Source: an uncultured bacterium (GTDB lineage Bacteria > Bacillota > Clostridia > Oscillospirales > Oscillospiraceae). Taken from it: a DNA stretch of 58,438 nt. This document shows positions 21,614-45,113 of the stretch, one piece after another. The notes under the pieces were generated by a model. That model had not been told where the DNA came from. It was given only the letters and a program-made list of their open reading frames with translations, and searched no databases. The stretch lies in assembly GCA_949840775.1 (NCBI GenBank), contig CATKXO010000016.1, positions 1 to 58,438 on the forward strand, in the 5' to 3' direction. The stretch's first letter is position 1; every line of letters begins with the position of its first letter. The position numbers and the translations under genes are program-made.

Positions 21614-21629
21614 CCAAGGAGTCCCGCTC

Positions 21630-23789
21630 ATGAGCGACCGAGATAAAAAACTGAACAAGGGTGAGCTCATCGACATCAAATCGCTGATCGGAGATGCCGA
21701 CGGCGGGGACTTCACCCTGGACGACATCATGGCCGAATACGGCCATCCCGCCCCCCCCGCGGAGGGGCCGGTCCCGGATAACGTGGTGGCCTTTCCCGGC
21801 CGGCAGGCCGTCCCCCCTCCCGACGGGGAGCCGGAGCTTCCGGAAGAGGCCCCTCCCCCCGGAGCGCTTCCCCCGGAGCAGCCCCTCCCCCAGGAGGCCC
21901 CCGGCCCGGAGGAGGAGAAGATTACCCCCTTCCCCAAAAAGCGAAACGCCCTGTCCGCCCTGGTCCACGACCTGAACCGGAGGGCGGACGACTACGCCGA
22001 CCACATGTTTGAGGAGGACGAATCCATCGACCGGGCGGAGGTCCGCCGGCTGGAGCGCCTCATCCCCGGCACCGACCAGGAGGAGGTATCAGAGGAGTCC
22101 CCCGGCCGCCAGCGGCGCCTTCCCAGGCGGGAGGAGCCCCCTCTCCCGGACGTGCCGCCCCAGGAGCTGGCCCGGCGGTACGGCAAAGGGCTGGGCTGGC
22201 TGCGCACCAGGACCCTGGCAGTCCTTCTTCTGGCCGTCCTGGCCCTGATTCAGACCCTGATTCCCGCGGCGGGCGCCGCCCTCCCGGAGCCGCTGGACCA
22301 GCCCGCCCTCCAGTGCGCCCTGTCCGCCGGCCTGCTGGGGCTGGGCGTCCTGCTCTCCGCCGACGTGCTGCTCACCGGCCTGGTCCGGGCCTGCCTGCTG
22401 AAATTCGGCATGGACACTCTGGCCGCCCTGGCCTGCCTCTTCACCCTGGCCGACGGCCTCCGGCTGACCTCCGCCCCGGAGGACCCCCAGCGTCTGCCCT
22501 ACTCCCTGGTCTGTCTGGCCGGGCTGTTCTTCCTCCTCCACGGCTCCTACCATAAAAAGTGCGCCCTGCGGCTGTCCTGCCGCACCGCCGCCTCCGCCGC
22601 CTCCCCCTACCGCATCACCCTGGACCCGGGCAAGTGGAACGACAAGAACACCTATGCCAAGTGGTCGGGCACCCAGGGGGACTTTGGCAGCCAGATTCAG
22701 GCCGACGACGGCGCCCAGCGCATTTTCCGCCGGATCTGCCCCCTGCTGTTCCTGGGTGACATCGCCTTCGCCCTGATGGCCTCCACCGGCGCCGGCCACC
22801 CTGAGCGGCTGCTCTGGGCCCTGTCCGCCCTGTTCACCGCCACCGCCGCCTTCGGCTCGGCGCTGGTCTGCGGCCGGCCCTTCCACAAAACGGCCCGCCG
22901 CCTGTCCGTCAGCGGCGCCGCCCTGGCCGGGTGGCCGGGGATTGCCGCCTCCCGGAGAGGCTGCTGCGTTCTCCTCACTGACGGTGACCTCTTCCCCCCC
23001 GGCTACGTGGAGCTCAACGGCTACAAGGTGATGTCCGACTTCCCCGCCGAGCGGGTGGTGGCCTACACCGCCACCCTCATCCGGGACTCGGGCAGCGGCC
23101 TGACTACCCTGTTCCACAATCAGCTGCGGGCCATGGGCGGGCTGATGCGCAACGCCGAGGCCCTCCAGTTCCATGCGGGGGGCGGGCTGTCCGCCAACAT
23201 CCGGGGGGACCAGGTGCTGGTGGGCTCCGCCGCCTTCATGAAGCTGATGGAGGTCCGCCTGCCCCAGGGGCTGAACGTAAAAAATGCCGTCTTCTGCGCC
23301 ATCGACGGCGAGCTGGCCGGCATCTTCGCCCTGAACTACACCCTGCCGGACACCGTCTTCCCCGCTCTGGAGGCCCTGATGATGGAAAAGGTGGAGCCGG
23401 TACTGGCCACCCGTGACTTCAACCTGATTCCCGCCATGCTCCAGCAGCGGTTTAAGCTGGCGGCGGACAAGATGGTCTTTCCCGACGTGGAGCGCCGCAG
23501 GCAGCTGTCCGACCCGGCGCAGGAGCACGACGGCGTACTCGCCGCCCTGCTGTGCCGTGAGGGGCTGCTCCCCTTCGCCGAAGCCATTACCGCCGCCAAG
23601 CGCCTGCGCTGGGCGGTCCGTCTGGGGGCCACCCTGTGTTGCGCCTCCTCCCTGCTGGGCCTCGCCCTGGCCGCCTATCTCACCAGCCTGGGGGCCTATA
23701 CCTCCCTGTCCCCCCTGAATCTGCTCATCTACATGCTTACCTGGCTGGCCCCGGTCTGGTTCCTGTCCGGTTGGGTACACAGGTTTTAG
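21630..23789 (+). CDS. P-type-ATPase-like membrane protein without catalytic motifs
   Basis: 719 residues, ATG 21630 behind AAGGAG. The first 190 residues are a soluble Pro/Glu-rich disordered stretch (opening MSDRDKKLNKGELIDIKSLIGD). Paired membrane helices follow (about 197-300 and 375-420), then a segment that lines up with a P1-type ATPase core: SGAALAGWPGIAASRRGCCVLLTDGD, where DKTGT is expected, then a nucleotide-domain-like region (NIRGDQVLVGSAAFM), AIDGELAGIFALNYTLPD, and LATRDFN where TGD is expected. Two C-terminal helices end it. The phosphorylated Asp motif, TGES and GDGxND are all absent, so ion pumping by the usual cycle is unlikely. It is probably a degenerate paralogue with a structural or regulatory role. 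Confidence 0.7.
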   Translation: MSDRDKKLNKGELIDIKSLIGDADGGDFTLDDIMAEYGHPAPPAEGPVPDNVVAFPGRQAVPPPDGEPELPEEAPPPGALPPEQPLPQEAPGPEEEKITPFPKKRNALSALVHDLNRRADDYADHMFEEDESIDRAEVRRLERLIPGTDQEEVSEESPGRQRRLPRREEPPLPDVPPQELARRYGKGLGWLRTRTLAVLLLAVLALIQTLIPAAGAALPEPLDQPALQCALSAGLLGLGVLLSADVLLTGLVRACLLKFGMDTLAALACLFTLADGLRLTSAPEDPQRLPYSLVCLAGLFFLLHGSYHKKCALRLSCRTAASAASPYRITLDPGKWNDKNTYAKWSGTQGDFGSQIQADDGAQRIFRRICPLLFLGDIAFALMASTGAGHPERLLWALSALFTATAAFGSALVCGRPFHKTARRLSVSGAALAGWPGIAASRRGCCVLLTDGDLFPPGYVELNGYKVMSDFPAERVVAYTATLIRDSGSGLTTLFHNQLRAMGGLMRNAEALQFHAGGGLSANIRGDQVLVGSAAFMKLMEVRLPQGLNVKNAVFCAIDGELAGIFALNYTLPDTVFPALEALMMEKVEPVLATRDFNLIPAMLQQRFKLAADKMVFPDVERRRQLSDPAQEHDGVLAALLCREGLLPFAEAITAAKRLRWAVRLGATLCCASSLLGLALAAYLTSLGAYTSLSPLNLLIYMLTWLAPVWFLSGWVHRF

Positions 23790-23830: not shown

Positions 23831-26800
23831 TCAATAGGTCAGCACGCGGTAGAGAATCTCAGCCATATCCACCCTGGTAAGGGGCTGATAGGGAGACAGC
23901 CACCCTCCGGAGGTGGGCAGATAACCCCGCTGCACAGCCATAGCCATAGCCCCCTGGGCATAGCCGGCCACGCTGCTGCCGTCGCTGTAGCCGTACAGCG
24001 TGGATATGGAGCCGTCCTCGGCGCTCCGCCCCGTGGCGCGCATGGCCCGCTGCACCATGCAGACGGCGTCCTGCCGGGTCAGGGTACTGTCGGGCGCGTA
24101 ATAGCCGCCGCCGATCCCGCTGACCACGCCCCTCGCGTAGAGCGCATTCACCGCCTCGGCGTAGTAGACCCCCGCAGGAACATCCACAAACGCCTGGGTC
24201 ATACCGCTGGGCGCAAAGCCAAACGCCTGATAAATCATCCGGGCGAAGTCCCCCCGGCGGATGGAGTTCTGGGGGCCGTACTGTCCGGTGGTCAGGCCCC
24301 GGGTGACGTTGCGCTCATAGAGGAAATCCACCGCCGCCTGCTGAACGGAGCTGTACCCTGCCATGTCGCTGAAATAGCGGGAGCCCTGGCCATAGCCTCT
24401 GCCCACCACAACCTCCACCGTTCCGGTAAAGGTCCCGCCGCTTCCGGAGGCGGTGGCAGTAAAGTCGACGTAGGCCGTCCCTTCAAATCCGGAGGCAGGG
24501 ACAAAGGCCACCCGGTCCAAATCACTGGCGTTTACGGTGGTGTCAGAGGTGATGCGCGTCCCCATATTGCTGCTGGAGCGGTAATTCCGGTACAGCGTGC
24601 CCTCACTGCTGAGGGGGGGCTTAAAGCGCACAGAGCTGATGTTCCGGTCGGTCTCCCACTGGGAGAGGTCGTCAAAGTCCACCCGGTTAAAAACCGCAGT
24701 GCTTCCATAATCGGTGTTGTAGTAGATGCTGTACCGGCCGCTGCTGCCGCCGCCGGAGCTGCTGGTCCCAATGGTCACCACCCCGTAGAAGCTGCTCCCG
24801 TTGGCGGAGCGCCCCTCAAAGGGGATGTCCACCGCACCGGAGAAGCTGTTGGACGCCCGGAAGGACAGCCGGCCGATGTTGCTGTTGCGGTACTGCGACC
24901 CGGTGCTGGTAATCCGGGAGCTGCCGTAGTACAGGGTCCCGTCCACGCTGCTGGGCAGGCTGCGGAAGACGATGTAGTCGATGGTGCGGCCGGTCAGGGT
25001 ATTGCTCAGGCCGGCAAAGTCACTGCTCCGGAAGTTCACCGTCCGCCCAGGGGCGCAGGTGTAATAGATATCCCCGGAGCCTGTGCCGCTGCGGACGTTG
25101 ATCTCCACATTGCCGCCAAAGCTGGTGCCGTCGGCGGACCAGCCGGTAAAGGGAATCTTCACCGTCCCGGTAAAGTCCGCCGCCGGGACAAAGGCCAGCC
25201 GGTCGATGCGGGGATTACGGGCGCCGTAGTAGTAGCTGGTACCGGCAGCCGCCCTGGTCCCGGTGTTGACAGAGGAGCGGTAGTCGTAGTACAGCACGCC
25301 TTCGCTCTCGCTGGGCAGGGCGTCAAAGCGGATCAGGCTCAGGTCCTGCCACCGGTCCAGGATTTCCTGGCAGTAGTCGTTAAAGTCCTCGTCGTCAAAG
25401 TGGGCCACGCCCCCCTTGGAGATGTCATAGGCCAGGCCGCCGTTGGCCACGCCGCCCTCCCGGCCCACCTGGATGGTCACCTGGCTGGCGTAGGAGCCGG
25501 CGTTGGCCCCCACGCCGTAGGCGGTGTAGTAGACGGTGACGGGACCGCTGTAGCCCGGAGCGGGGACAAACCAGATGTCGTCCAGCTCCTTCAGGCTGTA
25601 CTTCCGCTGCGTGTCAACCACTCTGCCGTAGTTCCCCGCGCCCGCGTAGTTCGTATACAGCTTGCCCTCCCGCTCCGGGGGCTGGGAGAAGACCACATGG
25701 TCCAGCTTAACCCCCAGCCGCTCCCGGCAGACCCGATTGAAGTCGTCGCCGCTGAAGCGCAGGGCGGTGTTGTAGTCGGTGCTGAGGGAGATGCCCGCGT
25801 TGGAGCCGCTGCCCGGATCGACCGTAATCTCCAGCCTACAGGCGTAGTTGCTGCCTGGGCCGTTGCTGTCCCCCTCAGACACGCCTGTGTAGTAAACAGT
25901 CACCTTCCCGGCAAATCCGGGCTTGGGCACAAAGGTGATGTCCTCAATGGACCGCTCCCCGGTGGGGACGCCTCCGCTGCGGTAGGGGTGGTAGTAGCTG
26001 CCGGAACCCACTCCCGCGCCGGTGCCGTTGGACTCGTTGTACCGGTAATAGAGGGTACCCTTGCTGGCGTCCACATTCAGGCCGGTGATGTGGGACAGGC
26101 TTCCCCCCGCCTGCCGGCGGAACCGGGAGAGCAGCTCGGAGAAGCTCAGGGACTTTTTGGTCTGGGTATACAGGGTGCCGTAGTCGATGGTGGCGTCGGG
26201 GTCGGGGATAACCTTCACATCAAAGTTGGCCCGGAAGCCCCGCTTGGTGTCGCTGACGGTAAATCTGGTTTTGCCGGGTGTATAGCCCACCACCTTGCCG
26301 TTGACATAGCCAGCCACGGTGGAGTTGTCCGACCAGCAGGTCAGTTCGCTGATATTGGCGTCGCCGAAGGCCTCCACCAGCTCGCTTAATTCCCTGGTCG
26401 TATTTTCTATCAGCTCGATTTCCTGCTCTGCTTCCTCCGTCAGCTTAAAGCCCTTGACCTCAACCGTCAAAGAAGCCGTCGCTCCTGCTATGGGCCCGTC
26501 CTTATCCTTCAGCCCCACGGTCAGCACCGCCTGGCCGGGCTGCCTGGCCGTGATTCTGAAACTCTGGTTCCCCACTCCCACCTGGGCAATATTTTTGTCG
26601 CTGGTCTCCCAATAGATGGGCAGCTCACACCGGTTGCCGCCCGTCGGATTGTACACAACGATAGCGCTGTTTCCATCCCGTGAAATCTGAATCTGACCGG
26701 AAACAGGGGTTTCGGAGCCCTTGCGGAAGCTGACCTCCACAGTCGCGTCCACGGTCCCCGGGTCCATGGGGTAGGGATCACCCGTGGGGGAGGTAATCGA

Positions 26801-27928
26801 GATGCTCGCCGTAACATCGGTGGGCAGCTTGGAGTCGGTGGTGGGCGTGTCAGGGTTGTCGGGGTCGGTCGTCCCGGAGCCGCCGCCGGACTTTGTGACG
26901 ATGCAGGTTACCGTACTCTTTGTGCCGTCTGTATATTTGGCCTCAAGCTTTGTTTCGCCTTCTTTTGCAGGGGTCAGTTCAACTCTTCCATTTGTGAGCG
27001 GTCTGATAGTAACGCTGTCCCCCTCAGTAATGCTCCATGAAATACCATTGGAAGTTACATACTCGTTATTCTCTGCATAATAGGCCTGCAATGTCTTCGT
27101 TTGAGCAATGTTGCCGTCACTCAGCGTCAGATACACTTCTTCTTTCGCAACGCTGTACTCGGTGATAACCACCTGCTTGCTGGAGCCCACTGTAATGTCG
27201 CACTTGATTGTTTCCGATGCCGGCTCAACGCCGGTGCCTATATTTTTATAAGTAACCTCGATTTCAATCTCGGCCTTTTCGTTTGTACCGGTGGCCCTTT
27301 TGCCATCCACCCTGACCTTGGCCTGGGCAGGGGAGGTCCCGCTCCCGTTTCCTTTTGTATAGGGCAGACTGATAAACTCGCTGCCGCTGACAATTCTGGC
27401 GGTCCAGGTCAGGTTCTTTAATTGGCCATCCGTAAATTTACCGCTTGTCGTGGAGTTGCTCCATGTGGGGGTAATATTTACATCCACAACACATGATTCC
27501 CCAACAGGAGTTGTCTTCGGCTGCGTCCCGTCAATCTCAAGCTCAAGTGTATCCACCGCCGCAGAAGTAACCTTAACGTAATACGACGCAGTCTCTTTTG
27601 TCGTCGTACCAGTATGGGTATAGGTCGCCGTAATGGTGGTTTCGCCCACTCCCTTAGCTGTTACCGTACCGTTGCTAACTGTGGCAACACTTTCATTGCT
27701 GCTTTTCCATTCAATGCCTGATGGGTTCGTCTGGGGCGTACCGTTGTCCACTGTAACGATAGCGGTCAGCGTTCTGGTCTTTCCCACGGGGAGGGAACCG
27801 GATTCCGTTGCACTGATCTGCACGCTGATGTTCGGAGCTGCCGCAGCCAGGGCAACTGTCCCCAGCATCACGGCCAAAACCGGTGCCAGAAGCAGGGAAA
27901 CACAGCACCGAACAAAGGTCTTTTTCAT
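23831..27928 (-). CDS. SLH-anchored surface protein with Ig-like and tandem repeat domains
   Basis: 1365 residues, ATG at 27926-27928 (MKKTFVRCCVSLLLAPVLAV, a signal peptide cut near ALAAAAP) behind AAAAGGAG. The N-terminal third holds bacterial Ig-like (Big_2) domains with the EWKSSNESVATVSNGTVTAKGVG type sequence and further Ig-like units. From about residue 600 there are five repeats of 105-120 residues sharing EGTLYYxY, FVPAxxFTG and the closing VEIxV strand. The C-terminal 180 residues are three S-layer homology domains (YFSDMAGYSSVQQAAVDFLYE and so on) that bind pyruvylated cell-wall polymer. It is the last gene of the surface operon. The repeats suggest an adhesin or stalk; the ligand is unknown. 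Confidence 0.88.
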   Translation of the reverse strand: MKKTFVRCCVSLLLAPVLAVMLGTVALAAAAPNISVQISATESGSLPVGKTRTLTAIVTVDNGTPQTNPSGIEWKSSNESVATVSNGTVTAKGVGETTITATYTHTGTTTKETASYYVKVTSAAVDTLELEIDGTQPKTTPVGESCVVDVNITPTWSNSTTSGKFTDGQLKNLTWTARIVSGSEFISLPYTKGNGSGTSPAQAKVRVDGKRATGTNEKAEIEIEVTYKNIGTGVEPASETIKCDITVGSSKQVVITEYSVAKEEVYLTLSDGNIAQTKTLQAYYAENNEYVTSNGISWSITEGDSVTIRPLTNGRVELTPAKEGETKLEAKYTDGTKSTVTCIVTKSGGGSGTTDPDNPDTPTTDSKLPTDVTASISITSPTGDPYPMDPGTVDATVEVSFRKGSETPVSGQIQISRDGNSAIVVYNPTGGNRCELPIYWETSDKNIAQVGVGNQSFRITARQPGQAVLTVGLKDKDGPIAGATASLTVEVKGFKLTEEAEQEIELIENTTRELSELVEAFGDANISELTCWSDNSTVAGYVNGKVVGYTPGKTRFTVSDTKRGFRANFDVKVIPDPDATIDYGTLYTQTKKSLSFSELLSRFRRQAGGSLSHITGLNVDASKGTLYYRYNESNGTGAGVGSGSYYHPYRSGGVPTGERSIEDITFVPKPGFAGKVTVYYTGVSEGDSNGPGSNYACRLEITVDPGSGSNAGISLSTDYNTALRFSGDDFNRVCRERLGVKLDHVVFSQPPEREGKLYTNYAGAGNYGRVVDTQRKYSLKELDDIWFVPAPGYSGPVTVYYTAYGVGANAGSYASQVTIQVGREGGVANGGLAYDISKGGVAHFDDEDFNDYCQEILDRWQDLSLIRFDALPSESEGVLYYDYRSSVNTGTRAAAGTSYYYGARNPRIDRLAFVPAADFTGTVKIPFTGWSADGTSFGGNVEINVRSGTGSGDIYYTCAPGRTVNFRSSDFAGLSNTLTGRTIDYIVFRSLPSSVDGTLYYGSSRITSTGSQYRNSNIGRLSFRASNSFSGAVDIPFEGRSANGSSFYGVVTIGTSSSGGGSSGRYSIYYNTDYGSTAVFNRVDFDDLSQWETDRNISSVRFKPPLSSEGTLYRNYRSSSNMGTRITSDTTVNASDLDRVAFVPASGFEGTAYVDFTATASGSGGTFTGTVEVVVGRGYGQGSRYFSDMAGYSSVQQAAVDFLYERNVTRGLTTGQYGPQNSIRRGDFARMIYQAFGFAPSGMTQAFVDVPAGVYYAEAVNALYARGVVSGIGGGYYAPDSTLTRQDAVCMVQRAMRATGRSAEDGSISTLYGYSDGSSVAGYAQGAMAMAVQRGYLPTSGGWLSPYQPLTRVDMAEILYRVLTY

Positions 27929-27960
27929 AAAAGCACTCCTTTTCCAATGAAATAAGGCAG

Positions 27961-27987
27961 CGGGAGCGGACCGGGGGCCCGCTCCCG
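27961..27987 (-). terminator. Hairpin between the two surface genes
   Basis: 9-bp arms CGGGAGCGG and CCGCTCCCG in the 67-base gap between the two SLH genes. The T-tract is poor, so it may attenuate or stabilise rather than fully terminate. Confidence 0.5.
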
Positions 27988-27995
27988 TGTTGGAA

Positions 27996-30900
27996 TTACT
28001 TAGTGGTTCCCTTATCTGTCCAGGTCTTGTTGCCCCAGGAGACATCCGTATAGAAATTATTCACCTTCATGTTCGTCTGGTTGGACTCCGTCCGTTTTTC
28101 GACCTGAATGGTCAGCGGCTCCGCCGCGGCCTGGCCTGCGGAGTTGGTCAGCTTGCCGCCGTTGATTTTCAGCGACACGTCCTCCGCCTTGCCGTTCAGC
28201 TTGAGCACCAGCGTCGTGCTGTCGCCGGTGGTGATCACCTGGCTCCTGTTCACGTCGATGCCCTTCACCTCGTCGGCAACGCTGGCCAGCTGCCTCACGC
28301 TGGTCACCGGCTCGTCCTCGCCCACATACAGCGGCGCGCTGAAGCTGATCCGGGCCTGACCGTCTACCGTGTCGTTGCTGCTCACGGTAAAGCTCGTCTT
28401 GGCCCCCTGGGCCGCAGGGATGGCGGTTCTGGTGGTATCTGCCGGCTTGCCGGGGCCGCTGCCCCGAACGGGCCACGCATTTCCTTCGTTGGCTGTAACG
28501 TTTCCTGTTCCCCAGAACACATTAATCATGTAATATCCCAAATCCTCTGTAAGTCCCGTCGGGTCCGGCCACTTAGACAGCGAGTGCATAATGTACAGTG
28601 CCTCAGGCGCAGATATTTTTCCCGAGTTTGCCAGGATACTGGATGCAATCTGGGCGTTAACGATAGGTCCTGTCAGCACAAGGGAAATCGTTGTTCTTCC
28701 ATCAGCGCCAACCGAAACTGTACTGGCATCCAAGTCAATGCCGTCATTATAGGCAAAAACATCTTCAAGGTTATTATTTGTGCCGTCTGCAACAACCTCG
28801 GTTCCATCTGCCAGATACAGTTTTCTGTCAAAGGTCAGCGTAATACGTCCGCTGGTAACCTTCTTGTTAGGATCTTCAACCGTAAAGCTGCCGCCAACGC
28901 CGTCCAGCTTCGGCGGGCTCGAAAGGCCCAGATTGAGCTCCTCGCCCTTGAAGGAGTAGCGCTGGCCGATGGATTTCTGCTGATCCGTATCGTCCTCCGG
29001 GTTTTTCACACCCATCGCAATCACATAATACGTCTGGTTATGATAGAGCTTGTACTGGCCCCACAGGGGAGTACCGGCTGCCCTTGCCTGTTCAAAGCTC
29101 TCATCCGTCGGGTTCTGGTTCTTCAGCTCAATCCATTCCTTCAGCTTCGTTTTCGCATCGTTCGAGGCGTAGATATCAAACACGGAGTACTTCTTTTTAT
29201 ACCCCTCCGGGCTGCCTGTACCAACCGTGGGGAAATAGCCGTCCTTGCCCTGGCTGGACGCGTCGTCATAATCGTAATATCTCCACAGCGCGTCATAGAT
29301 TCTCAAATCCTGGTAAGCTTTCGGCAGCTGGCCTCTCAGGCTGCTGTCCACCACCTCTTTCAGCTTGGAGGTCAGGGTTATGTTTGTACCCCCTATTCTC
29401 ATCCAGGCATAGCTCTCGGCGTCCTTTTTAGAAAAAACCTTATAGGACAGCTTGGCGCCCATATTGGTAGAGGTCACGCTGGCCCGGCCGGGATTGGCGC
29501 TGCCGTCGCTGCCGATTTGGAGCTCAGGCCGGCTTACCGGGTCGGTTTTGAACTTATAAATCTCCACCGCAGAGGGTACCTCGCTGGCTCCGGTGATGAC
29601 AAAATAGACGTAGTAGGTCCGGTCGGGCATCAGGTCCTCAAGCTTGATCTCTCTGGGCGCGCCGGGCGAATACTCCAGATACCCGTGGTCCACCACCATG
29701 TTCTCCTGAATCCAGCTTCCGCTGGGGCTCTGGATATTGGTGGCCAGGGGGAGATTTCTGTCCAGCTCAGGCAGGGGCGGGTCGCTGTTCTCCCGGTCTC
29801 TGCCGCCGCCGGGCACCAGCTCCGGCCTGATCCTGCCTCCGTCTGCCAGCTTCGTGGTCACAGAGGGCTCCCAGTCCGACGTATCCGCCGTTTCCGCCTC
29901 GTTGATGTTCTTGTTGGCGTAGCCCACCACGTAGTAGATGGTGCCGGCCCGGTTGTCGGCCAGGCCCAGCCACATGCTCATCTTGGTCTCGTCCATGGGG
30001 TCGGAGCGGAACTCCGGCATGGTGTCGCTGAACTCGGGCTGGATTCTGTCCTCAGCCTCCCACTCCATCACCAGCTGCCTGGGGTCCTTCTCGTATTTTT
30101 CCGCCGAGCCCAGCGACTCGCCGCCGCCGCCGCCCAGCTTATCCGCCAGGAACTTATCCCACTTTCCGATAAACACATTCTCGGTGCCCAGAGCGGCCAG
30201 ATTAGAGGGGTAGCCCGCCGCCACGTCAACATAGAGCTTGACCTGCTTGCCCCAGGTGTCCGGGTTGGTCTGACCGTCCACTTCCCGCACCACAACGGCA
30301 AAGTCATAATACACCTGCTGGCCTTCTTCCTGACCGTCTCCCGCCTTCGTCTTGCTGAGCAGGGTGTTCAGGTCGGGCAGGCCGTCGCCCGTGTTGCTCC
30401 GGCAGTTGTTAAAGGTGTAGTGCATCCGCTTGCCGGGGCGGCCCTGGCTGCTGGCGCCGAAGTTGTACGTGCCGCTGTTGCCCAGCTTGACCCAGCCGTT
30501 CCTATCCGGGTTGGCGGCCATATTGGGCATACCGTAGATAAACTTGTTGTCCGTATCGTCCCGCTTTGCGGTAAGCGCCGTTTCCTTCCCCGGGTCGCCG
30601 GTCACGGCCCGGTAGTACAGGTCGTACACGATATTGCTGTCGGTCCACAGCAGCAGGTCATAGGCGATGCCGTCGGCCACCAGCTCGGTATCCTCCGGAA
30701 TCAGTCGGAACTTGAAGTCCACCTTGTAGGGACCCACGTTCAGCCCCTGGTTGTTCGTATTCTCCGTTTTGATTGCCTCGGGCCAGTGCTCGTCGAGCAG
30801 CGTAAAGCTGTCAGAGATCAGGCCCACCTGGGCAAACACCACGGGGAACTCATCCAGCACCGTGGGCGAGGGGTCCATCTCATGCCCGCTCAGGTCGGTG

Positions 30901-33803: not shown

Positions 33804-33841
33804 ATGCGGTTCTCCTTTCTGTTCCCCAGGGGAAGGGGCTG

Positions 33842-34426
33842 TCAGTCTGCGTTGTCAATCTGGATGCAGAACACCGCCTTGCGGATCAAGGCTTCCTCGT
33901 CCTGAATCAGGTCCACAAACTTGGTGGCGTACAGGGGCTGGTCCGAGGTCTCGTCGGGAAGCTCCCGGAGGACCTGGGTCTTGACCAGCAGGGGGGAATC
34001 GGTCACAGAGAGGACCAGCTCCACGATCTCCCGCTCCTCCAGGGGAATGCTGCTCCAAAAGGCAATGCCGCCGCAGCTCAGGTCCTTGGCCCTGACCCCC
34101 TTCTGCCCTCTCCAGCGCCCGGTGACGGGGTACATCACGCTCTCAAAGTCGGTGAGGATGCGCAGGTTCTCCCGGGCGTTGGGGCCCAGGGCGGCGGTGG
34201 GCTGAATCACCATCTTCTCATCCCGCTGGCGGATGATAACGCCCACCCGGTTGGGGGTAGAGTCGTCCATGCCGATGAGCTGAATCTCCCGGTGCTCGGC
34301 CACCTTGTCCTCCTTGCCGCCCAGAATGCGGATCTGGAGCACCTCGGAGTTGGGCGGGGACTCCAGCACCGCATTGGCCAGCGGGGTCCCCTGGCTGTCC
34401 AGAATCAAATAGAGGCGTTCTGCCAT
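33842..34426 (-). CDS. PilZ-like protein (possible c-di-GMP receptor)
   Basis: 194 residues, ATG at 34424-34426, directly following the FlhB-like gene. An N-terminal half (about 1-90, MAERLYLILDSQGTPLANAVLE) resembles the YcgR-type N-terminal barrel. The C-terminal half has VTGRWRGQKGVRAKDLSCGGIAFWSS, which matches the PilZ signature D-x-S-x-x-G, with Arg residues upstream, although the RxxxR spacing is imperfect. PilZ proteins bind cyclic di-GMP and regulate flagella or exopolysaccharide. Its position between a FlhB-like gene and SLH genes supports a motility or surface switch. The call rests on the short motif, so I am moderately sure. Confidence 0.7.
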   Translation of the reverse strand: MAERLYLILDSQGTPLANAVLESPPNSEVLQIRILGGKEDKVAEHREIQLIGMDDSTPNRVGVIIRQRDEKMVIQPTAALGPNARENLRILTDFESVMYPVTGRWRGQKGVRAKDLSCGGIAFWSSIPLEEREIVELVLSVTDSPLLVKTQVLRELPDETSDQPLYATKFVDLIQDEEALIRKAVFCIQIDNAD

Positions 34427-34792
34427 TTAAGACTCTCCTTTCTCTTCCACAGGGAGGGAAACGGGCTGGGCCGCCTCGTCTGCCTGCCTGGCCAGCGCCT
34501 GGCGCTGCCGCCGGGCCTTGTCCGGGTCGTTGGGGTCAAAATTCAAAAAGTAGACGTAAATCTCCACAATGGCCTGATACAGCGCGTCCGGAATCTCCTG
34601 CCCCAGAGCCAGCTGGGACAGCATCGTGGCCAGGGAGTTGTCCTCGTAGACGGGGACGCCGCTCTCAGTGGCCACCTCCACCATCCGCTCGGCCAGAAAG
34701 CCCATGCCGGAGGCCACCACCACCGGGGCGCCCTCCCCCTCGTATTTCAGGGCCACAGCCCGGTTGGTGGCCCGGTTATCATATCTTGACAT
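34427..34792 (-). CDS. FlhB C-terminal domain-like protein (YlqH-type)
   Basis: 121 residues from ATG at 34790-34792 (MSRYDNRATNRAVALKYEGEG); it overlaps the FliK-like gene by 14 bases. The sequence VALKYEGEGAPVVVASGMGFLAERMVEVATESGVPVYEDNSLATML matches the cytoplasmic C-terminal domain of FlhB/FhlX export-switch proteins. The NPTH autocleavage site and the membrane part are absent. In Bacillus a similar stand-alone gene, ylqH, follows ylqG. It may interact with the FliK-like partner, as FlhB and FliK do in hook-length control (known for the family; inferred here). The C-terminal 30 residues are charged and disordered. Confidence 0.85.
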   Translation of the reverse strand: MSRYDNRATNRAVALKYEGEGAPVVVASGMGFLAERMVEVATESGVPVYEDNSLATMLSQLALGQEIPDALYQAIVEIYVYFLNFDPNDPDKARRQRQALARQADEAAQPVSLPVEEKGES

Positions 34793-36209
34793 TGATGCTG
34801 TTCTCCCCCTCAAAGATCCGGGGAAATACCCCGGAGATTGTCAGCGGCCGGACCATCTGCTGGACCTGGACCGCGTTGGCGGTTAAGCCGTTGTCGGTGA
34901 TGATGCGGGCCAGCTCCCCCTGCACCAGCTGGGAGAAGGGGGCCACCCGCTCCGGACAGAAGACCTGCACGTCAACCTTCTCTCCCTGGCAGGTGAGCAC
35001 CATATCAAAAAAGCCCAAGTCCTGAATGTCAATCTTGAACAGGAAGCGCTGGATGTTTTCCTTTTCGCCCCTGCCCTTTTTCAGGTTTTCCCCGGCGTCC
35101 GGGTCCACCCACATCTCGGAAAAGGCCATTTTCCCCTCCCACTCCATGGGCAGGAGGATATGGTTCAGGGGCATGTGGACGCTCTCATTCACCAGGAAGG
35201 CGGAGACGATATTGCGGAAGGCCTCCTGCACCTCCTTGCCCGCGCCGCTCTGGAGGGCGGACTGGGCGGCCCTGGCCAGCTGGGCGGCAAACTGGTCGCT
35301 GTCAGCGGCCTTGGCAAAGTTGGTGCTGTTCAGCAGGCGGAGCAGGGCCTCGTCAGACAGGCCGCCCAGCTTCTCCCGCAGGCCGGGGCTGCTGATCAGC
35401 TGGTGGAAGGCCTGGAGCAGGCCGTCCTCGCTGCCGTTCTCATAGCGGGCCACGTCCAAGGCCAGCATGGAGATCAGGGTGCGGGACAGGCCCATGTCGT
35501 TGGTCTTGCTGGTGTAGCCGGACAGGAAGGTGAGGATGGAGCCCTGGAGCAGCTTCAGCGCCCCCTGCCGGTCGCCGGCGTTCATCTTCTCCTCCAGCTG
35601 AGACACCATGGGCAGCAGCTGGCTGCCGTAGCTGGCAGGGATGGCCCTGGTCAGCTTGGTCAGGATGCGCAGCAGGTTGCCCTGGATATGTCCGGTGGAG
35701 GAGTAGTCGGTATACCTCTTCAAAAATTGCAGGATGTTGCTGCGCACCGCCTCGGAGTTGCCCGAGGCAAAGGCCTCCCGCAGGATGTTGAACAGGGCCC
35801 CGCCGAACCGGGTGCCGTTGGCCATCTGGGCGTTCAAAAACTTGGCCAGCGCGGCCTCGTCCATCTTCAGCATATTGAGCAGGGCGCCCATCTCGCCGGC
35901 CAGCCCCTCCTCGATGCCGGAGGAGACCACCTTGCCCTCGTACAGGGCGAAGAGGGTGGTCAGGCTCTCCCGCAGGTCAGGGGTGTCGGCCAGCCGCTGG
36001 AGGAAGGATGCAAAGTTAGAGTCGTAGCGCAGGCCCTGGGCGGAGTCGCCGGTGTCCTGCCGCTCCGTCCGGTTGTCCGGACGGGCCACCCGGTCCAGGT
36101 CCGGTGCGTTCTGGATTCGGGTGTCGCTGGGGGATACGGGGAGGTTTCGGTTCACATTGCTGTTGTCATGACCCGGTACCGGGTTCGTCACACCAAGCAG
36201 GTCTGGCAT
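34779..36209 (-). CDS. FliK/YlqG-like flagellar hook-length control-type protein
   Basis: 476 residues from ATG at 36207-36209 (MPDLLGVTNPVPGH), with GGAG 7-8 bases before; a TTG 10 codons upstream is less likely. The N-terminal 70 residues are disordered and Asp/Asn-rich. A long helical middle (about 75-370) contains repeated Leu-rich helices. The C-terminal 100 residues (FKIDIQDLGFFDMVLTCQGEKVDVQVFC and onward) resemble FliK_C: a beta-strand-rich domain with LG-x-x-x-V/M followed by a helix. The adjacent FlhB C-domain gene matches the ylqG-ylqH arrangement of Bacillus. The function of that pair is not established; flagellar export regulation is the analogy. It is the first gene of the surface operon. 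Confidence 0.75.
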   Translation of the reverse strand: MPDLLGVTNPVPGHDNSNVNRNLPVSPSDTRIQNAPDLDRVARPDNRTERQDTGDSAQGLRYDSNFASFLQRLADTPDLRESLTTLFALYEGKVVSSGIEEGLAGEMGALLNMLKMDEAALAKFLNAQMANGTRFGGALFNILREAFASGNSEAVRSNILQFLKRYTDYSSTGHIQGNLLRILTKLTRAIPASYGSQLLPMVSQLEEKMNAGDRQGALKLLQGSILTFLSGYTSKTNDMGLSRTLISMLALDVARYENGSEDGLLQAFHQLISSPGLREKLGGLSDEALLRLLNSTNFAKAADSDQFAAQLARAAQSALQSGAGKEVQEAFRNIVSAFLVNESVHMPLNHILLPMEWEGKMAFSEMWVDPDAGENLKKGRGEKENIQRFLFKIDIQDLGFFDMVLTCQGEKVDVQVFCPERVAPFSQLVQGELARIITDNGLTANAVQVQQMVRPLTISGVFPRIFEGENSINVKI

Positions 36210-36260
36210 TGGCGACACTCCATTTCCAAATTCATTCAAATAGGGGCGGACGCGGGGGCC

Positions 36261-36312
36261 GGTCCGGCGGGGCAGAAAACGGGCCGGGACAGCGCCCGGC
36301 CCCTGCCGGACC
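36261..36312 (-). promoter_or_regulatory. Nested hairpin in the leader of the surface operon
   Basis: Outer arms GGTCCGGC (36261-36268) and GCCGGACC (36305-36312) enclose inner arms GGGCCGGG (36281-36288) and CCCGGCCC (36295-36302), all perfect. It is 50-100 bases upstream of the FliK-like start and may be a leader RNA element or protein site. No T-tract is present. Confidence 0.5.
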
Positions 36313-36377
36313 TGGTCATAACTATTTTAAGCCAGCGCCGGCCAAAAGTCCATCCCCAGTTTTTTTTACAGAAAACT

Positions 36378-36416
36378 TAATTTTCTCATTGACACTGCCG
36401 ATATATCGAGTATGAT
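36378..36416 (+). promoter_or_regulatory. Overlapping sigma-D/sigma-28-type and sigma-A-type promoters of the che operon
   Basis: TAAT (36378-36381), 15 bases, then GCCGATAT (36397-36404): a near-exact match to the motility promoter TAAA-N15-GCCGATA(T/A). The same DNA holds TTGACA (36389-36394), 16 bases, TATGAT (36411-36416), a good sigma-A promoter. Both would start upstream of cheA. Confidence 0.8.
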
Positions 36417-36497
36417 TAGATATGGGCGGGTGTACTATGCCTGCGGGCTGTCCTCCCCCGCCCCACAACCAAAACCAAATGAAAAGGTGGCGTTTTT

Positions 36498-38597
36498 ATG
36501 GGCAGCGGCAACGACAGCATCCTGGATATGTATCTCTACGAGACCAACACCCTGCTGGAACAGCTGGACGGCATTCTGCTGACGGCGGAACAGGCGGATA
36601 CATTCTCCGAGGACAGCGTCAACGAGATATTCCGTATTATGCACACGATCAAGGGCTCCTCCGCCATGATGGAGTTCAGCTCCCTGATGACTGTGGCCCA
36701 CCGGATTGAAGACATGTTCTTCATCGTCCGGGAGAAGGGCATGGATGTGGTCCCGGAGGCGACCCGCCCGGATCTGTTCGACATGCTGTTCCAGGCTGTG
36801 GACTTTTTCCGCGGTGAGATCGAGAAGGTGGAGAACGATGAACCACTCTCTCAGTCTATCGACCACATAGTTAATAAAATTAATAGCCTGATCGATAAAA
36901 TTCAGGGCAATCCTACCTCCTCTGAGCCCGAGCCTGCGGCAGAGGCCGAGAGCGCCCCGGCCGCCCCGGCGGAGAGCGCCCCCGCCGTCGGCGTGGTGGA
37001 TCAGGACTACTTATTCGGCATCCACGTCTACTTTGACGAGGGCAGCGGCATGGAGAACCTGCGCGCCTTCATGCTGACCAACAGCGTAAAGGACTACTGC
37101 AGCGACTTTATCTGCTTCCCCGCCAACGTGGAGACCGACCCCTCCACCTCCGACATCATCGCCGACCAGGGCTTCCTGGTCTGGTTCCGCACCGCCGAGG
37201 AGCGCAACGCGGCCATCCCCGCCGTACAGGCCGGCGCCTCCGTCCGGGAGTACCAGCCGGTAGATGCCCCCAAGCCCGCTCCCGCCCACGACGATGACGC
37301 AAAGCCCGCTCAGGCCCAGGCAGACGCCCCTAAGCCCTCCCAGGATGCCCCCAAGGCAGACGCCCCCGCCTCCAAGCCCGCTCCCGCCCCGGCCGCCGGC
37401 CAGCAGCACGCCAAAGAGAGCCTCATCAGCGTCAACCTGTCCAAGCTGGACCAGCTGCTGGCCGTGGTCAGCGAGATTGTCATTACCGAGTCCATGGTCA
37501 CCGCCTCCCCCGACCTGAAGGGGCTGCGGCTGGACAACTTCACCAAGTCCGCCCGTGACCTGCGCAAGCTCACCGACGACCTTCAGGACGTGTCCATGTC
37601 CCTGCGGATGGTGCCCGTATCCGGCACCTTCCAGAAGATGAACCGCATCGTCCGTGACATGAGCAAGAAGCTGGGCAAAAAGGCCAAGCTCACCCTCATC
37701 GGTGAAGACACCGAGGTGGACAAGACCATTGTAGACGCCATCGGCGACCCCATCATGCACATCGTCCGCAACTCCATGGACCACGGCCTGGAGGAGAACG
37801 AGGCCGACCGCATCGCCGCCGGCAAAGACCCGGTGGGCGAGGTGATTCTCTCCGCCCGGCACACCGGCAGCGAGGTCATCATCGAGATCAAGGACGACGG
37901 CCAGGGGGTAGACACCCAGGCTGTTCTGAACAAGGCCATCCGCCAGGGCCTGGCCGCCCCCGACCACGAGTACAGCCAGAAGGAGATTCTCAATTTCCTG
38001 ATGATGCCCGGCTTCTCCACCAACACCGAGGTCACCGAGTATTCCGGCCGCGGCGTGGGCATGGACGTGGTCAAAAAGAACGTGGCGGACGTGGGCGGCA
38101 CCGTGTCCATCTCCAGCGAGTGGGGCAAGGGCATGACCACCACCCTGAAAATCCCCCTGACCATGGCCATCATGGACGGCATGGAGGTCTCGGTGGGCAA
38201 GTCCATGTTCACCATCCCCATCAACAGCATTCAGTCCTCCCTGAAGGTGTCCGCCGAAGACGTAATCCACGACCCCGCCCAGGGCGAGATGGTCAAAATC
38301 CGCGACAATTTCTACCCCATCATCCGGGCCAAAGAGCTGTTCTGCATGGAGCAGGGCTGCGACAACATCGAAGACGGCATCCTCATGTGGGTGGAATCCG
38401 GCGAGCACTCCTACTGCCTGTTTGTGGATGAGCTGCTGGGCGAGCAGCAGATCGTGGTAAAGCCCCTGCCCAACTATGTGAACGGCTTCGGCGTAAAGAA
38501 CTACGGCATCACCGGCTGCAGCATCCTGGGCGACGGCAGCATCAGCATCATCCTGGATGTAATCAACGTATACACCGCCGCCCACAACGCCTTTTGA
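36498..38597 (+). CDS. cheA: Chemotaxis histidine kinase CheA
   Basis: 699 residues, ATG 36498. P1 phosphotransfer domain (1-125) with the phosphorylatable His49 in IMHTIKGSSAMM. A CheY/CheB-binding P2-like region follows (about 165-255), then a Pro/Ala/Lys linker (about 260-305). The dimerisation helices are around 310-370 (LSKLDQLLAVVSEIVITESM). The ATPase domain has N box HIVRNSMDHGLEE, G1 DDGQGVD and G2 GRGVGMDVVKKN. The C-terminal CheW-like domain is about 565-699. All catalytic motifs are intact. It phosphorylates CheB (encoded three genes on) and probably a CheY outside the window. First gene of the cheA-W-R-B operon. Confidence 0.96.
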   Translation: MGSGNDSILDMYLYETNTLLEQLDGILLTAEQADTFSEDSVNEIFRIMHTIKGSSAMMEFSSLMTVAHRIEDMFFIVREKGMDVVPEATRPDLFDMLFQAVDFFRGEIEKVENDEPLSQSIDHIVNKINSLIDKIQGNPTSSEPEPAAEAESAPAAPAESAPAVGVVDQDYLFGIHVYFDEGSGMENLRAFMLTNSVKDYCSDFICFPANVETDPSTSDIIADQGFLVWFRTAEERNAAIPAVQAGASVREYQPVDAPKPAPAHDDDAKPAQAQADAPKPSQDAPKADAPASKPAPAPAAGQQHAKESLISVNLSKLDQLLAVVSEIVITESMVTASPDLKGLRLDNFTKSARDLRKLTDDLQDVSMSLRMVPVSGTFQKMNRIVRDMSKKLGKKAKLTLIGEDTEVDKTIVDAIGDPIMHIVRNSMDHGLEENEADRIAAGKDPVGEVILSARHTGSEVIIEIKDDGQGVDTQAVLNKAIRQGLAAPDHEYSQKEILNFLMMPGFSTNTEVTEYSGRGVGMDVVKKNVADVGGTVSISSEWGKGMTTTLKIPLTMAIMDGMEVSVGKSMFTIPINSIQSSLKVSAEDVIHDPAQGEMVKIRDNFYPIIRAKELFCMEQGCDNIEDGILMWVESGEHSYCLFVDELLGEQQIVVKPLPNYVNGFGVKNYGITGCSILGDGSISIILDVINVYTAAHNAF

Positions 38598-38628
38598 TCC
38601 GGGATTTTGAAAGAAGGGAGAACTTACT

Positions 38629-39108
38629 ATGCAGCAAACTGAGGAAGTCATGTTCGCGACCGAGGCTCAAATGGACGACTATAACGACCAGCTGCCCGAG
38701 ATCGCCAGCGAAAAATACCTGATCTTCTCCTCCGACGGGCTGATGTACGGCATCAAGGCCGAGCAGGTGAACGATATTATCACCGACTACGCCATCACCT
38801 ACCTCCCCCGGGTGCCCGGCTATGTGCGGGGGGTCATCAATCTCCGGGGCCAGATCGTCCCCATGGTAGACATCCGCCTGCGCCTTGGCAAGATGCCCCA
38901 GGACAACTTCTGCGGCATCGTGGTCAACGTAGACGGCAACAACGTGGGCATCCTGGTGGACATGGTGGAGCAGATGGTAGACGTTCCCCTGGACGCCATC
39001 CTGCCCATTCCCACCAGCAGCGGCCAGGCCATGGTGTCCGGCATGTGCACCCTGCCGGACGGCAATACCATGCTGGAGCTGGACTGCGAGCAGCTGCTCC
39101 ACGACTGA
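38629..39108 (+). CDS. cheW: Chemotaxis coupling protein CheW
   Basis: 159 residues, ATG 38629 behind GAAGGGAG. Two-lobed beta-barrel adaptor: SEKYLIFSSDGLMYGIKAEQVNDII opens lobe 1 and LPRVPGYVRGVINLRGQIVPMVDIRLRLG is the family signature. The second lobe contains VVNVDGNNVGILVDMVEQMVDVPLDAI. It links CheA to chemoreceptors at the membrane. The first 27 residues are a short extra tail. It is 31 bases downstream of cheA and 39 before cheR. No chemoreceptor gene is in the window. Confidence 0.95.
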   Translation: MQQTEEVMFATEAQMDDYNDQLPEIASEKYLIFSSDGLMYGIKAEQVNDIITDYAITYLPRVPGYVRGVINLRGQIVPMVDIRLRLGKMPQDNFCGIVVNVDGNNVGILVDMVEQMVDVPLDAILPIPTSSGQAMVSGMCTLPDGNTMLELDCEQLLHD

Positions 39109-39147
39109 TTACCGTGATACTTATAGTTCAAGGGAGGGAGCCCTGAG

Positions 39148-39954
39148 ATGATCCAGACCATCTCGGATGAAGATTTCCGCAAGCTGACAACCTTTATCAA
39201 GTCCCAATACGGCATCACTCTCCAGGAGAAGCGGCAGCTGGTTACAAGCCGGCTGTCCTCCCTGGTGATGGAACAGGGCTTCAACGACTTTGGCCCTTTT
39301 GTCAGCAATCTGCTGAAGGAGCGGGACCCCCAGAAGATGGAGCTGGTGCTCAACCGCCTGACCACCAATTACACCTTCTTCATGCGTGAGACAGAGCACT
39401 TCGACTTCTTCACCAAGGTCATCATGCCCGAGCTGGTGCACAAGTACCAGAAGAAGAAATCCATTGCCATCTGGAGCGCCGGCTGCTCCAGCGGGGAAGA
39501 GCCCTACAACCTCACCATGTGCATCAAGGAATTTCTGGGCCTCCAGGCCAGCCAGTGGGACACCCGCATCCTGGCCACCGACATCTCCCAGCAGGCCCTG
39601 GCCAAGGCCAAAAAGGGCATCTACGAGGTGCCGGACACCGTCCCCGCCCTCTGGCGGAAGAAGTATTTCAAGAAGATCGAGGGCAGCCGGTACGCCGTCA
39701 CCCCCGAGGTGCGCAGCAATGTGATCTTCCAGACCTTTAACCTGATGGACCCCATCAAGTTCCGCACCAAATTCGACGTAATCTTCTGCCGCAACGTAAT
39801 GATCTACTTTGACCAGCCCACCAAAGACGCCCTGGTGCGCCGGTTTTACGACGCCACCAACCCCGGGGGCTACCTGATGATCAGCCACTCCGAGAACCTG
39901 AGCAAAGACGCCCCCTATGCCACGGTGGCCCCGTCCACCTTCCAGAAAAAATAG
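39148..39954 (+). CDS. cheR: Chemotaxis methyltransferase CheR
   Basis: 268 residues, ATG 39148 behind AGGGAGG. An N-terminal helical domain (MIQTISDEDFRKLTTFIKSQYGITL, typical CheR start) precedes the SAM-dependent methyltransferase domain. Motifs: FMRETEHFDFF, the SAM-binding WSAGCSSGEEPYNLTM, TDISQQALAKAKKGIY and FCRNVMIYFDQP, closing GGYLMISHSENL. It methylates Glu residues of chemoreceptors for adaptation, opposed by CheB. Length is typical. Confidence 0.96.
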   Translation: MIQTISDEDFRKLTTFIKSQYGITLQEKRQLVTSRLSSLVMEQGFNDFGPFVSNLLKERDPQKMELVLNRLTTNYTFFMRETEHFDFFTKVIMPELVHKYQKKKSIAIWSAGCSSGEEPYNLTMCIKEFLGLQASQWDTRILATDISQQALAKAKKGIYEVPDTVPALWRKKYFKKIEGSRYAVTPEVRSNVIFQTFNLMDPIKFRTKFDVIFCRNVMIYFDQPTKDALVRRFYDATNPGGYLMISHSENLSKDAPYATVAPSTFQKK

Positions 39955-39958
39955 CCCT

Positions 39959-39985
39959 GTCCCGACCCGGACTCCGGGTCGGGAC
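39959..39985 (+). terminator. Hairpin between cheR and cheB
   Basis: Perfect 12-bp stem (39959-39970 with 39974-39985) with a 3-base loop and GAGTTTG afterwards. It may lower cheB expression relative to cheA-W-R. Confidence 0.6.
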
Positions 39986-40017
39986 GAGTTTGAATCTCTG
40001 TAAAAGGAGAGATCGAT

Positions 40018-41124
40018 ATGTTTCCAGCCAACAAAAAGATCCGTGTCCTGGTGGTAGACGACTCTGTCCTGGCCCGCACCATGATCTCCAACGGCCTGAA
40101 CACCTCCCCCCGGATCGAGGTGGTGGGCACCGCCTTCAACGCCAAAGACGCCCGAACCAAGATCGACCAGCTCAAGCCCGACGTGATGACCCTGGACGTG
40201 GAGATGCCCGGCATGAACGGCATCGACTTTCTCAAGCAGCTGCTCCCCGCCGTCCCTCTGCCCGTCATTCTGGTGTCCTCCCTGGACCTGCGGGTGTTCG
40301 ACGCCCTGTCCGCCGGCGCGGTGGACTTTGTCCGCAAGCCGGAGCCGGGGAAAAATGAGGAGTTCATCCGCTCCCTCAGCGGCAAGGTGATCTCCGCCGC
40401 CGGGGCCAAGGTGCGCCCCAGGCCGGGAGCCCCCGCCCTGGCCGGCTCCAAGGCCGCCGCCGGGTTCCCCGCCGGCGGTCCCCGCCTGCCCACCACCGGC
40501 GCCGCCCCGGCCCTCCCCGCCCCGCCCCTGCTGGGCAGCCGCCCCTCCCTGGACGCCGCCATCATCGCTCTGGGGGCCTCCACCGGCGGCACCGAGGCCA
40601 CCCTGGAGGTGATGAAGCGCCTGCCCGCCGACATCCCCCCCATGCTCATCGTCCAGCACATGCCCATCGGCTTCACCCAGATGTACGCCGAACGGCTCAA
40701 CCGCCTGTGCCACATGGAGGTCCGTGAGGCCAGGAACGGCGACGAGCTCCACCGGGGACTGGCCCTGCTGGCCCCGGCGGACTACCAGATGCGCGTGGTC
40801 CGCTCCGGAACCCGGTACTCGGTCTCCTGCCAGCCGGGAGAAAAGGTGAGCGGCCACCGCCCCTCGGTCGACGCCCTGTTCTTCTCCATGGCGGAGCAGG
40901 TAAAGTGCAAGATGGCCGGCATCATCATGACCGGCATGGGCCGTGACGGCGCCGACGGCCTGCTGAAAATGCGCCAGGCCGGGGCCTACACCATCGGCCA
41001 GGATAAGGAGTCCTCCGTGGTGTACGGGATGCCCATGGTGGCCTACAACATCGGGGCCGTTCAGATTCAGGGCTCCTGCGAAGACATCGCGGGCATTCTG
41101 CTGCGGCAGCTGCAAAAGTGGTAA
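40018..41124 (+). CDS. cheB: Chemotaxis response regulator / protein-glutamate methylesterase CheB
   Basis: 368 residues, ATG 40018 behind AAAGGAGAG. Receiver domain (1-125) with the acidic pocket VVDDS and phospho-acceptor Asp60 in LDVEMPG. A Pro/Ala-rich linker (about 128-172) follows, then the methylesterase domain with the catalytic triad visible as GASTGGTEA (Ser), IVQHMPIGFT (His) and MTGMGRDGADG (Asp). It removes receptor methyl groups and deamidates glutamines; phosphorylation by CheA switches it on. It ends the operon with a strong terminator. Confidence 0.96.
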   Translation: MFPANKKIRVLVVDDSVLARTMISNGLNTSPRIEVVGTAFNAKDARTKIDQLKPDVMTLDVEMPGMNGIDFLKQLLPAVPLPVILVSSLDLRVFDALSAGAVDFVRKPEPGKNEEFIRSLSGKVISAAGAKVRPRPGAPALAGSKAAAGFPAGGPRLPTTGAAPALPAPPLLGSRPSLDAAIIALGASTGGTEATLEVMKRLPADIPPMLIVQHMPIGFTQMYAERLNRLCHMEVREARNGDELHRGLALLAPADYQMRVVRSGTRYSVSCQPGEKVSGHRPSVDALFFSMAEQVKCKMAGIIMTGMGRDGADGLLKMRQAGAYTIGQDKESSVVYGMPMVAYNIGAVQIQGSCEDIAGILLRQLQKW

Positions 41125-44684: not shown

Positions 44685-44762
44685 GAAAGGCGGTGAGAAC
44701 GCGAAAACAAGCGTTTTCCGCAACTGCAATCCACATTTTGCTATAAATGAAAGGAAATGATT

Positions 44763-45113
44763 ATGGAACTGACCTATACAAAAGTTGGAGATTACTACAT
44801 CCCTGACCTTGCCCTTGACGATGACACCGAGTACGAGATCGGCATATATGGCCGGATGCGGGAGAAGTTCCTAAAAGAGCATCACCCTGGCGTTTACAAT
44901 CGGATGCTGCTCTATGGAGAATTGTGGAAGCATCTAGCTGAAATTGATGCCGCTTGTCATGAGCGCATGGATTTCCTAATTCCGGCCATGGCAAAACAGG
45001 AGGGCGTAACCGAAGCCCTAAAAGCATCTAGTCAGATGGAATGGGTGGGGCGTATGAATAATATCCGCAACCGGGCGGAAGAAATCATACTCCACGAACT
45101 GGTCTACGCATGA
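44763..45113 (+). CDS. TnpV-type transposon protein
   Basis: 116 residues from ATG 44763, behind GAAAGGAA; an ATG two codons upstream is possible. MELTYTKVGDYYIPDLAL then GIYGRMREKFLKEHHPGVYNRML and MEWVGRMNNIRNRAEEIILHEL are typical of the TnpV proteins found in Tn4451-like and other clostridial mobilizable elements. The function is not established. It is soluble and mostly helical. It is transcribed alone and ended by a strong terminator, the first gene inside the inserted element. Confidence 0.88.
   Translation: MELTYTKVGDYYIPDLALDDDTEYEIGIYGRMREKFLKEHHPGVYNRMLLYGELWKHLAEIDAACHERMDFLIPAMAKQEGVTEALKASSQMEWVGRMNNIRNRAEEIILHELVYA

Follow-up and report, generated by a model that had tools for sequence, protein, structure and literature searches.

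What does a chemotaxis operon do beside genes for giant cell-wall proteins when no flagellar structural gene is in sight? The question is raised by a stretch of 58,438 nucleotides (contig CATKXO010000016.1 of assembly GCA_949840775.1; here called the window, at its full length) from an uncultured bacterium of the Oscillospiraceae. Positions 23831-41124 hold a block of nine genes in two divergent groups: a che operon on the plus strand and, on the minus strand, an operon that runs from a FliK-like gene through FlhX (the cytoplasmic C-terminal domain of FlhB without its membrane part) and PilZ to two giant SLH-domain proteins, SLH2 and SLH1. A sequence-only reading had described this arrangement, which was confirmed by Pfam, the FliK-like protein being recognised by position and by a profile match. 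It had also proposed that chemosensory phosphorylation and cyclic di-GMP (c-di-GMP) bear on the secretion or deployment of the giants, perhaps in place of flagellar control or as a complement to it. The gene pairing is real but belongs to flagellar motility. The block is rather likely to be the chemotaxis and accessory arm of a flagellar cluster, with SLH2 as a wall-anchored accessory of flagella-driven movement. The nine genes are as follows.

23831..27928, minus strand: SLH1, with signal peptide, Big_2 domain, cadherin-like repeats and C-terminal SLH domains; about 1,365 amino acids
27996..33803, minus strand: SLH2, with signal peptide, SLH domains, CBM54-like beta-helix and FN3/Ig-like domains; 1,935 amino acids
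33842..34426, minus strand: PilZ protein (Pfam PilZ, E 3.9e-7), with RxxxR and DxSxxG intact
34427..34792, minus strand: FlhX, the FlhB C-terminal domain alone (PF01312 positions 259-334); about 121 amino acids
34779..36209, minus strand: FliK-like protein, divergent, overlapping the start of FlhX; 476 amino acids
36498..38597, plus strand: CheA, with Pfam Hpt, P2, dimer, HATPase and CheW domains
38629..39108, plus strand: CheW (Pfam, 1.5e-27)
39148..39954, plus strand: CheR (Pfam, 1.1e-58)
40018..41124, plus strand: CheB (Pfam, 2.6e-57)

The starts of SLH1 (27928), FlhX (34792) and the FliK-like gene (36209) were picked by eye from ribosome-binding sites. FlhX abuts PilZ, and similarly tight packing was seen in related loci, where the median gaps were -35 bp between FliK-like and FlhX (70 loci), -1 bp between FlhX and PilZ (70 loci), 33.5 bp between PilZ and SLH2 (76 loci) and 72 bp between SLH2 and SLH1 (65 loci). 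This spacing is as expected for an operon and suggests that the minus-strand genes are co-expressed.

The sequence-only reading had noted that rod, hook and filament genes are missing. A Pfam scan of 29 window proteins detected none of them, but the same genome has rod, hook, hook-associated, ring and switch genes on another contig, C32. Nine of the ten C32 proteins scanned were supported by Pfam, namely FlgK, FlgC, FliF, FliI, FlgD, FliM, an FlgF/G-type rod protein, CheC and CheD; the protein named FlgB had no Pfam match, and FlgL, FliJ, FlgE and others were named by eye. C32 also carries the true FliK (PF02120, E 4.5e-14) and a second PilZ gene adjoining FlgK (L003:2816-3442), which is weakly related to that of the block. 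PF01312 has two matches in the genome: one is the full-length FlhB on C32, the other the short window copy. The window CheA is the only CheA found (single PF02895 match), and together with CheW, CheR and CheB it makes up the sole chemotaxis core detected. A canonical flagellin was found neither in this assembly (97% complete, 64 contigs) nor in a flagellated congener (G189). An open reading frame (ORF) of 765 amino acids on contig C1 (95806-98103; L156) gave a weak, partial flagellin match.

Gene order in relatives was compared in GTDB genomes, using the best 80 of 160 loci found with the SLH2 core. Where a locus held enough DNA, PilZ and FlhX lay upstream of SLH2 in 75 of 75 cases, the FliK-like gene in 71 of 71 and CheA in 57 of 57; in six loci one gene had been missed by ORF calling and was confirmed by tblastn. 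SLH1 was the gene next to SLH2 in 64/80 loci. A chance neighbourhood is ruled out by this synteny. Flagellar genes beside the block in relatives had been named beforehand as the finding that would reduce it to part of a flagellar locus, and such genes are present: FlgB lies downstream in 13/80 loci, following SLH1 in some relatives, and an FlgK-type gene lies on the che side in 12/80, many loci ending before either would be visible. In one relative (G053) a single contig carries CheB-R-W-A, FliK-like, FlhX, PilZ, SLH2, SLH1, FlgB, FlgC and FliF, continuing to FlhB and CheC-CheD. In a one-contig genome (G078) FlgK adjoins CheB, and FlgB lies about 8 kb away; in both genomes the flagellar genes were named by similarity to the C32 proteins. 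Among the carriers of the block are Flintibacter muris (DSM 110149, locus L046), Flavonifractor plautii ATCC 29863, Pseudoflavonifractor, Lawsonibacter, Intestinimonas and Oscillibacter. The che genes belong to established families and, as they include the only CheA of a flagellated genome and have flagellar neighbours in relatives, the che operon is assigned to flagellar chemotaxis.

Co-occurrence was analysed in 300 genomes of the family, the present one included, many of which are incomplete or fragmented. PF01312 was found in 62 genomes, with both forms in 47, only the full-length form in 12 and only the short form in three (G006, G028 and G056, which are 80-91% complete). Flagellation was inferred from FlhB; in a spot check of 32 genomes, CheA was found in 24 and flagellin in 24, G189 having CheA without a flagellin match and G006 a flagellin match without CheA. 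SLH2, searched without its SLH domains, had strong orthologues in 32/300 genomes (E at most 6.7e-87). FlhX is present in every one of these and full FlhB in 31; the remaining carrier is a genome 80% complete. The expected tie between the SLH genes and the FliK/FlhB-like pair thus holds for SLH2. In 35 further genomes the matches were weak (E no better than 6.4e-17), fell for the most part in the beta-helix region and were not counted. As to whether the block persists in strains without flagella, none of the 238 family genomes lacking PF01312 had a strong SLH2 match (hypergeometric probability for the co-occurrence 3.6e-26, a raw value that ignores kinship). Five genera contain both states, and all agree: (i) g1, with G000 and G189 against G039, G128, G237 and G275; (ii) g30, with four genomes against G273; (iii) g74, with three against G074; (iv) g89, with G089 against G160 and G214; (v) g64, with G284 against G064. 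Loss of the SLH system as a whole in the non-flagellated congeners is ruled out: SLH domains were plentiful in 32/32 genomes examined, with or without PF01312, so the absence of SLH2 does not reflect loss of that system. The PilZ subfamily was found in 33/300 genomes, all FlhX-positive, comprising the 32 SLH2 carriers and G222, in which SLH2 is cut by a contig end.

The association extends beyond the family. Among 394 genomes of the order, 29 matched the SLH2 core, 21 of them in full and one in part (G379). Outside the family, full FlhB and FlhX were present in 18/18 order genomes with the core, FlhB having been examined there in core carriers only. The loci of 17 of these 18 genomes were compared: in 16, PilZ and FlhX lie ahead of SLH2 and the locus includes CheA; the 17th, the only one from family f17, is cut by the contig. 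SLH1 follows SLH2 in 3/17 of these loci. Among 398 genomes of the phylum, 51 matched and five had the full core: the present genome, G311 and three members of family f126. The latter three carry FlhB and FlhX, and SLH2 lies near FliK-FlhX-PilZ in changed order; in one of them (G844) a serpin gene stands between SLH2 and the FliK-like gene (L154:6026-7345). Linkage of SLH2, PilZ, FlhX and the FliK-like gene was thus seen in four families (f1, f13, f23 and f126), and the fact that it outlasted rearrangement speaks for a function. In a locus of another family (L147:13466-16507), a PAS-GGDEF-EAL gene directly follows SLH2; this is the one scanned of four similar-sized genes (the others in L140, L145 and L149). 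A search of plasmids with the SLH2 core gave one partial match.

Pfam detects SLH domains in both giants (E 1.5e-19 for SLH2 and 2.1e-17 for SLH1) and in 23/23 aligned members of each family, which places them in the class of SLH cell-wall-anchored proteins; the SLH2 profile also matches the SLH domains of the S-layer protein Sap. By a crude criterion, Sec-type signal peptides are present in 66/73 SLH2 and 65/65 SLH1 proteins. Control of their secretion by the FliK/FlhB-like pair is therefore unlikely. The beta-helix of SLH2 is homologous to the CBM-54 domain of ChiW (5gzt chains A and B, E 2.1e-12 and 3.7e-10), and the FN3/Ig-like domains are weak matches. Residues 1-850 are well conserved, while the C-terminal half varies widely. 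The Pfam matches of SLH2 include neither GH18 nor any other catalytic domain of glycoside hydrolases. The ChiW self-cleavage motif (GGGxxS, with N, Q, D or H before S), read by eye, is absent from the window copy, which has extra residues ahead of the invariant Ser and an Ala immediately before it.

The PilZ protein scores 30.8 bits against PF07238 (cut-off 22.5). It contains both RxxxR and D/NxSxxG, which we take to define the c-di-GMP motif of PilZ receptors, and the motif is invariant or nearly so across 25 aligned orthologues. The block PilZ therefore probably reads c-di-GMP, a prediction from the intact motif that sustains the c-di-GMP link of the earlier interpretation. Its profile gave one chance match only in the PDB, and none was found in viral contigs.

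FlhX matches PF01312 at positions 259-334 of 335 (E 2e-18). In alignment it lacks NPTH, the autocleavage motif of FlhB, which is present in the full-length FlhB of the same genome. A profile of 20 sequences, one being the C-terminal part of that FlhB, matches the FlhB C-domain 3b1s (E 7.8e-24). The best NCBIfam family is TIGR00789 (flhB_rel), but the score of 78.1 bits is below the curated cut-off of 117.35. The window copy of the FliK-like protein has no PF02120 (Flg_hook) match, and 3/18 relatives match the domain, at best with E 0.013; the protein was recognised by its position and by a C-terminal profile match to same-slot proteins of other lineages (hhalign E 3e-5, probability 73%, against the slot-equivalent FliK), and of three such proteins two score above the PF02120 cut-off. 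There was no profile match to the main FliK of the genome, and only weak, unrelated matches in the PDB. Together, FlhX and the FliK-like protein recall the export substrate switch of flagella. In three loci of other lineages (L007, L033 and L016) SLH2 is missing and a VanY-type carboxypeptidase occupies the slot after FlhX; Pfam identified it in L007 and L016, and inspection by eye in L033. The genes that come after it in L007 and L033 resemble, by eye, EAL/HDOD and PilZ genes.

In the model favoured here, the block would have been split from the main flagellar operon (C32) in this assembly, and its minus-strand operon would supply a second FliK/FlhB-type pair, a c-di-GMP receptor and a giant wall-anchored protein. 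SLH2 would probably be exported by Sec rather than by the flagellar machine; its SLH domains would bind the cell wall and display a polysaccharide-binding-type beta-helix and an Ig/FN3 stalk. It might then serve flagella-driven movement, in particular on surfaces, as do SlhA and CmoA in Paenibacillus, while PilZ might tune flagellar output or the use of SLH2 to c-di-GMP. The action of SLH2 may lie in surface movement, passage through the wall or adhesion; an accessory of surface movement is favoured because SlhA and CmoA are the nearest tested analogues.

Several observations weigh against this model. Nearly half of the family genomes with full FlhB (28 of 59) yielded no strong SLH2 orthologue; five of the 28 were examined for other SLH proteins, and all five have them. 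In genus g44 the SLH2-like gene of G132 sits away from the block, and the flagellated G044 has no SLH2. SLH2 therefore follows one branch of the flagellated members rather than flagella generally, and is not a core part. The co-occurrence may partly reflect shared descent, and the comparison outside the family is confined to core carriers. Finally, matches to sigma-28 promoters were found in 0/69 sets of FliK-like/CheA intergenic sequences on either strand, with about 0.17 background matches expected; the scan, which used a consensus and included a few sets with negative gaps from ORF calling, is a weak test.

It is possible, though doubtful, that SLH2 instead acts as an adhesin or binds polysaccharides, being regulated together with flagella for the switch from swimming to sessile life. 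This would suit its homology to the CBM-54 beta-helix of ChiW, described in the available text as a binder of several polysaccharides (PMC5132251), the position of PilZ ahead of SLH2 in all 75 loci with room and the PAS-GGDEF-EAL gene of L147. It would fit less well with the wide variation of the C-terminal half, and a purely adhesive role does not require loss together with flagella.

That SLH2 belongs to the flagellar structure itself on the wall side, for example as a bushing, an anchor or an S-layer collar round the rod, appears unlikely. SLH2 is restricted to flagellated genomes, and its conservation is compatible with such a part: identity to the G053 orthologue is 48% in the core and 36% over the whole protein, compared with 30% for FlgL, 37% for FlgE, 38% for FliF, 40% for FlgK, 65% for FlgC and 81% for FliI, so that in this comparison the core falls within the range of flagellar proteins. 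The VanY-type peptidoglycan carboxypeptidase that follows FlhX in some other lineages also acts on the wall. Against a structural part, SLH2 is missing from nearly half of the family genomes with full FlhB (28/59), and other SLH proteins are present in the five of them examined.

Simple hitchhiking, with SLH2 placed in the flagellar cluster by ancestry and lost by shared deletion without any functional tie, is improbable. The loci are linked by vertical descent, and G132 has its SLH2-like gene elsewhere; but the linkage survives the changed order in f126, the block is kept here although the main flagellar operon lies on another contig, and PilZ co-occurs with SLH2. A non-flagellar system that replaces flagellar control, with secretion or deployment of the giants governed by chemosensory phosphorylation and c-di-GMP via FliK/FlhB-like parts, can be set aside as highly improbable: it accommodates the conserved pairing and the lack of flagellar structural genes among the window proteins scanned, yet a flagellar operon exists elsewhere in the genome, the block has flagellar neighbours in relatives, none of the 238 genomes without PF01312 has a strong SLH2 match, and both giants bear Sec-type signals by the crude test.

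While che, FliK-like/FlhX, PilZ and SLH2 form one unit, as the sequence-only reading had supposed, SLH1 does not share their specificity. It matches Pfam Big_2 (1.2e-8), and Cadherin_5 was found in 18/23 relatives. Among 80 chosen genomes of the 300, its repeat region matched 42, comprising 31/33 with the block, 5/15 flagellated genomes without SLH2 and 6/32 without PF01312 (G273, G074, G031, G118, G182 and G210). A flagellum-specific SLH1 is ruled out by these last six, and because of them SLH1 would seem to be a surface protein of general use that became part of the operon.

Beside SLH1, at 21468-23789, lies a convergent ORF of 773 amino acids without a Pfam match, which is 69-78% identical in 4/8 related loci tested. 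The CheB side of the window carries a mobile or mobilizable element (44757-56535) encoding TnpV, a large serine recombinase, a ParB-like and an actin-like protein, and MobA/MobL.

In Gram-positive bacteria the flagellum has to pass through a thick wall, often with an S-layer, and its wall-side parts are little known. SLH2, encoded beside PilZ and the second FliK/FlhX pair, is a named, testable candidate in gut bacteria. Very tentatively, and as an idea that is unlikely to hold in full, the three might form an undescribed flagellar accessory module of S-layer Firmicutes, in which SLH2, found in flagellated species only, would act where flagellum and wall meet, and PilZ and the second FliK/FlhB-type pair would let c-di-GMP set export switching and the wall-side part together. 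The block also gives a genomic context for FlhX. An FlhX-type protein, HP1575, is reportedly called a 'spare part'; no role of FlhX outside H. pylori was found in the open-licence literature searched, nor was a report of a che/FliK-like/FlhX/PilZ/SLH block.

Known systems resemble single features of the block. P. alvei deleted for SlhA no longer swarms, despite having flagella, and is impaired in biofilm formation (PMC3776848, as far as its available text goes). By its description SlhA is, like SLH2, a giant SLH-anchored surface protein with a carbohydrate-binding-type region; unlike SLH2, it has its SLH domains at the C-terminus, and its gene is flanked by a cell wall polymer locus and the S-layer gene instead of sitting with flagellar genes. 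The excerpt of that report mentions neither PilZ nor FlhX as a partner. Paenibacillus CmoA is needed for flagella-driven movement on hard agar and is reduced in a flagellin mutant (PMC5072692, available portion). It shares with SLH2 large size, a secretion signal, repeated Ig-type domains and a place in a flagellar cluster, where its gene follows fliD-fliS; it differs in its vWFA and IPT/TIG domains, neither of which turned up when 23 SLH2 members were scanned against Pfam at E 0.01. CmoA was found in secreted and surface fractions, and the excerpt describes no SLH anchor. Paenibacillus ChiW, according to the accessible part of its description (PMC5132251), combines SLH domains, a CBM-54 beta-helix and Ig-like domains on the cell surface as SLH2 does; SLH2, in contrast, has no GH18 match and, in the window copy, no self-cleavage motif. 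In C. thermocellum, an unrelated SLH gene was 25-fold higher in planktonic cells, in which flagellar genes were also up (PMC5327387, in the available text). The closest counterpart of the FliK-like/FlhX pair is the flhX-fliK pair of Nitratiruptor, a stand-alone FlhB C-domain with a FliK gene (PMC9321776, as excerpted); the pair of the block differs in its very divergent FliK partner and in heading an operon with PilZ and wall-anchored giants.

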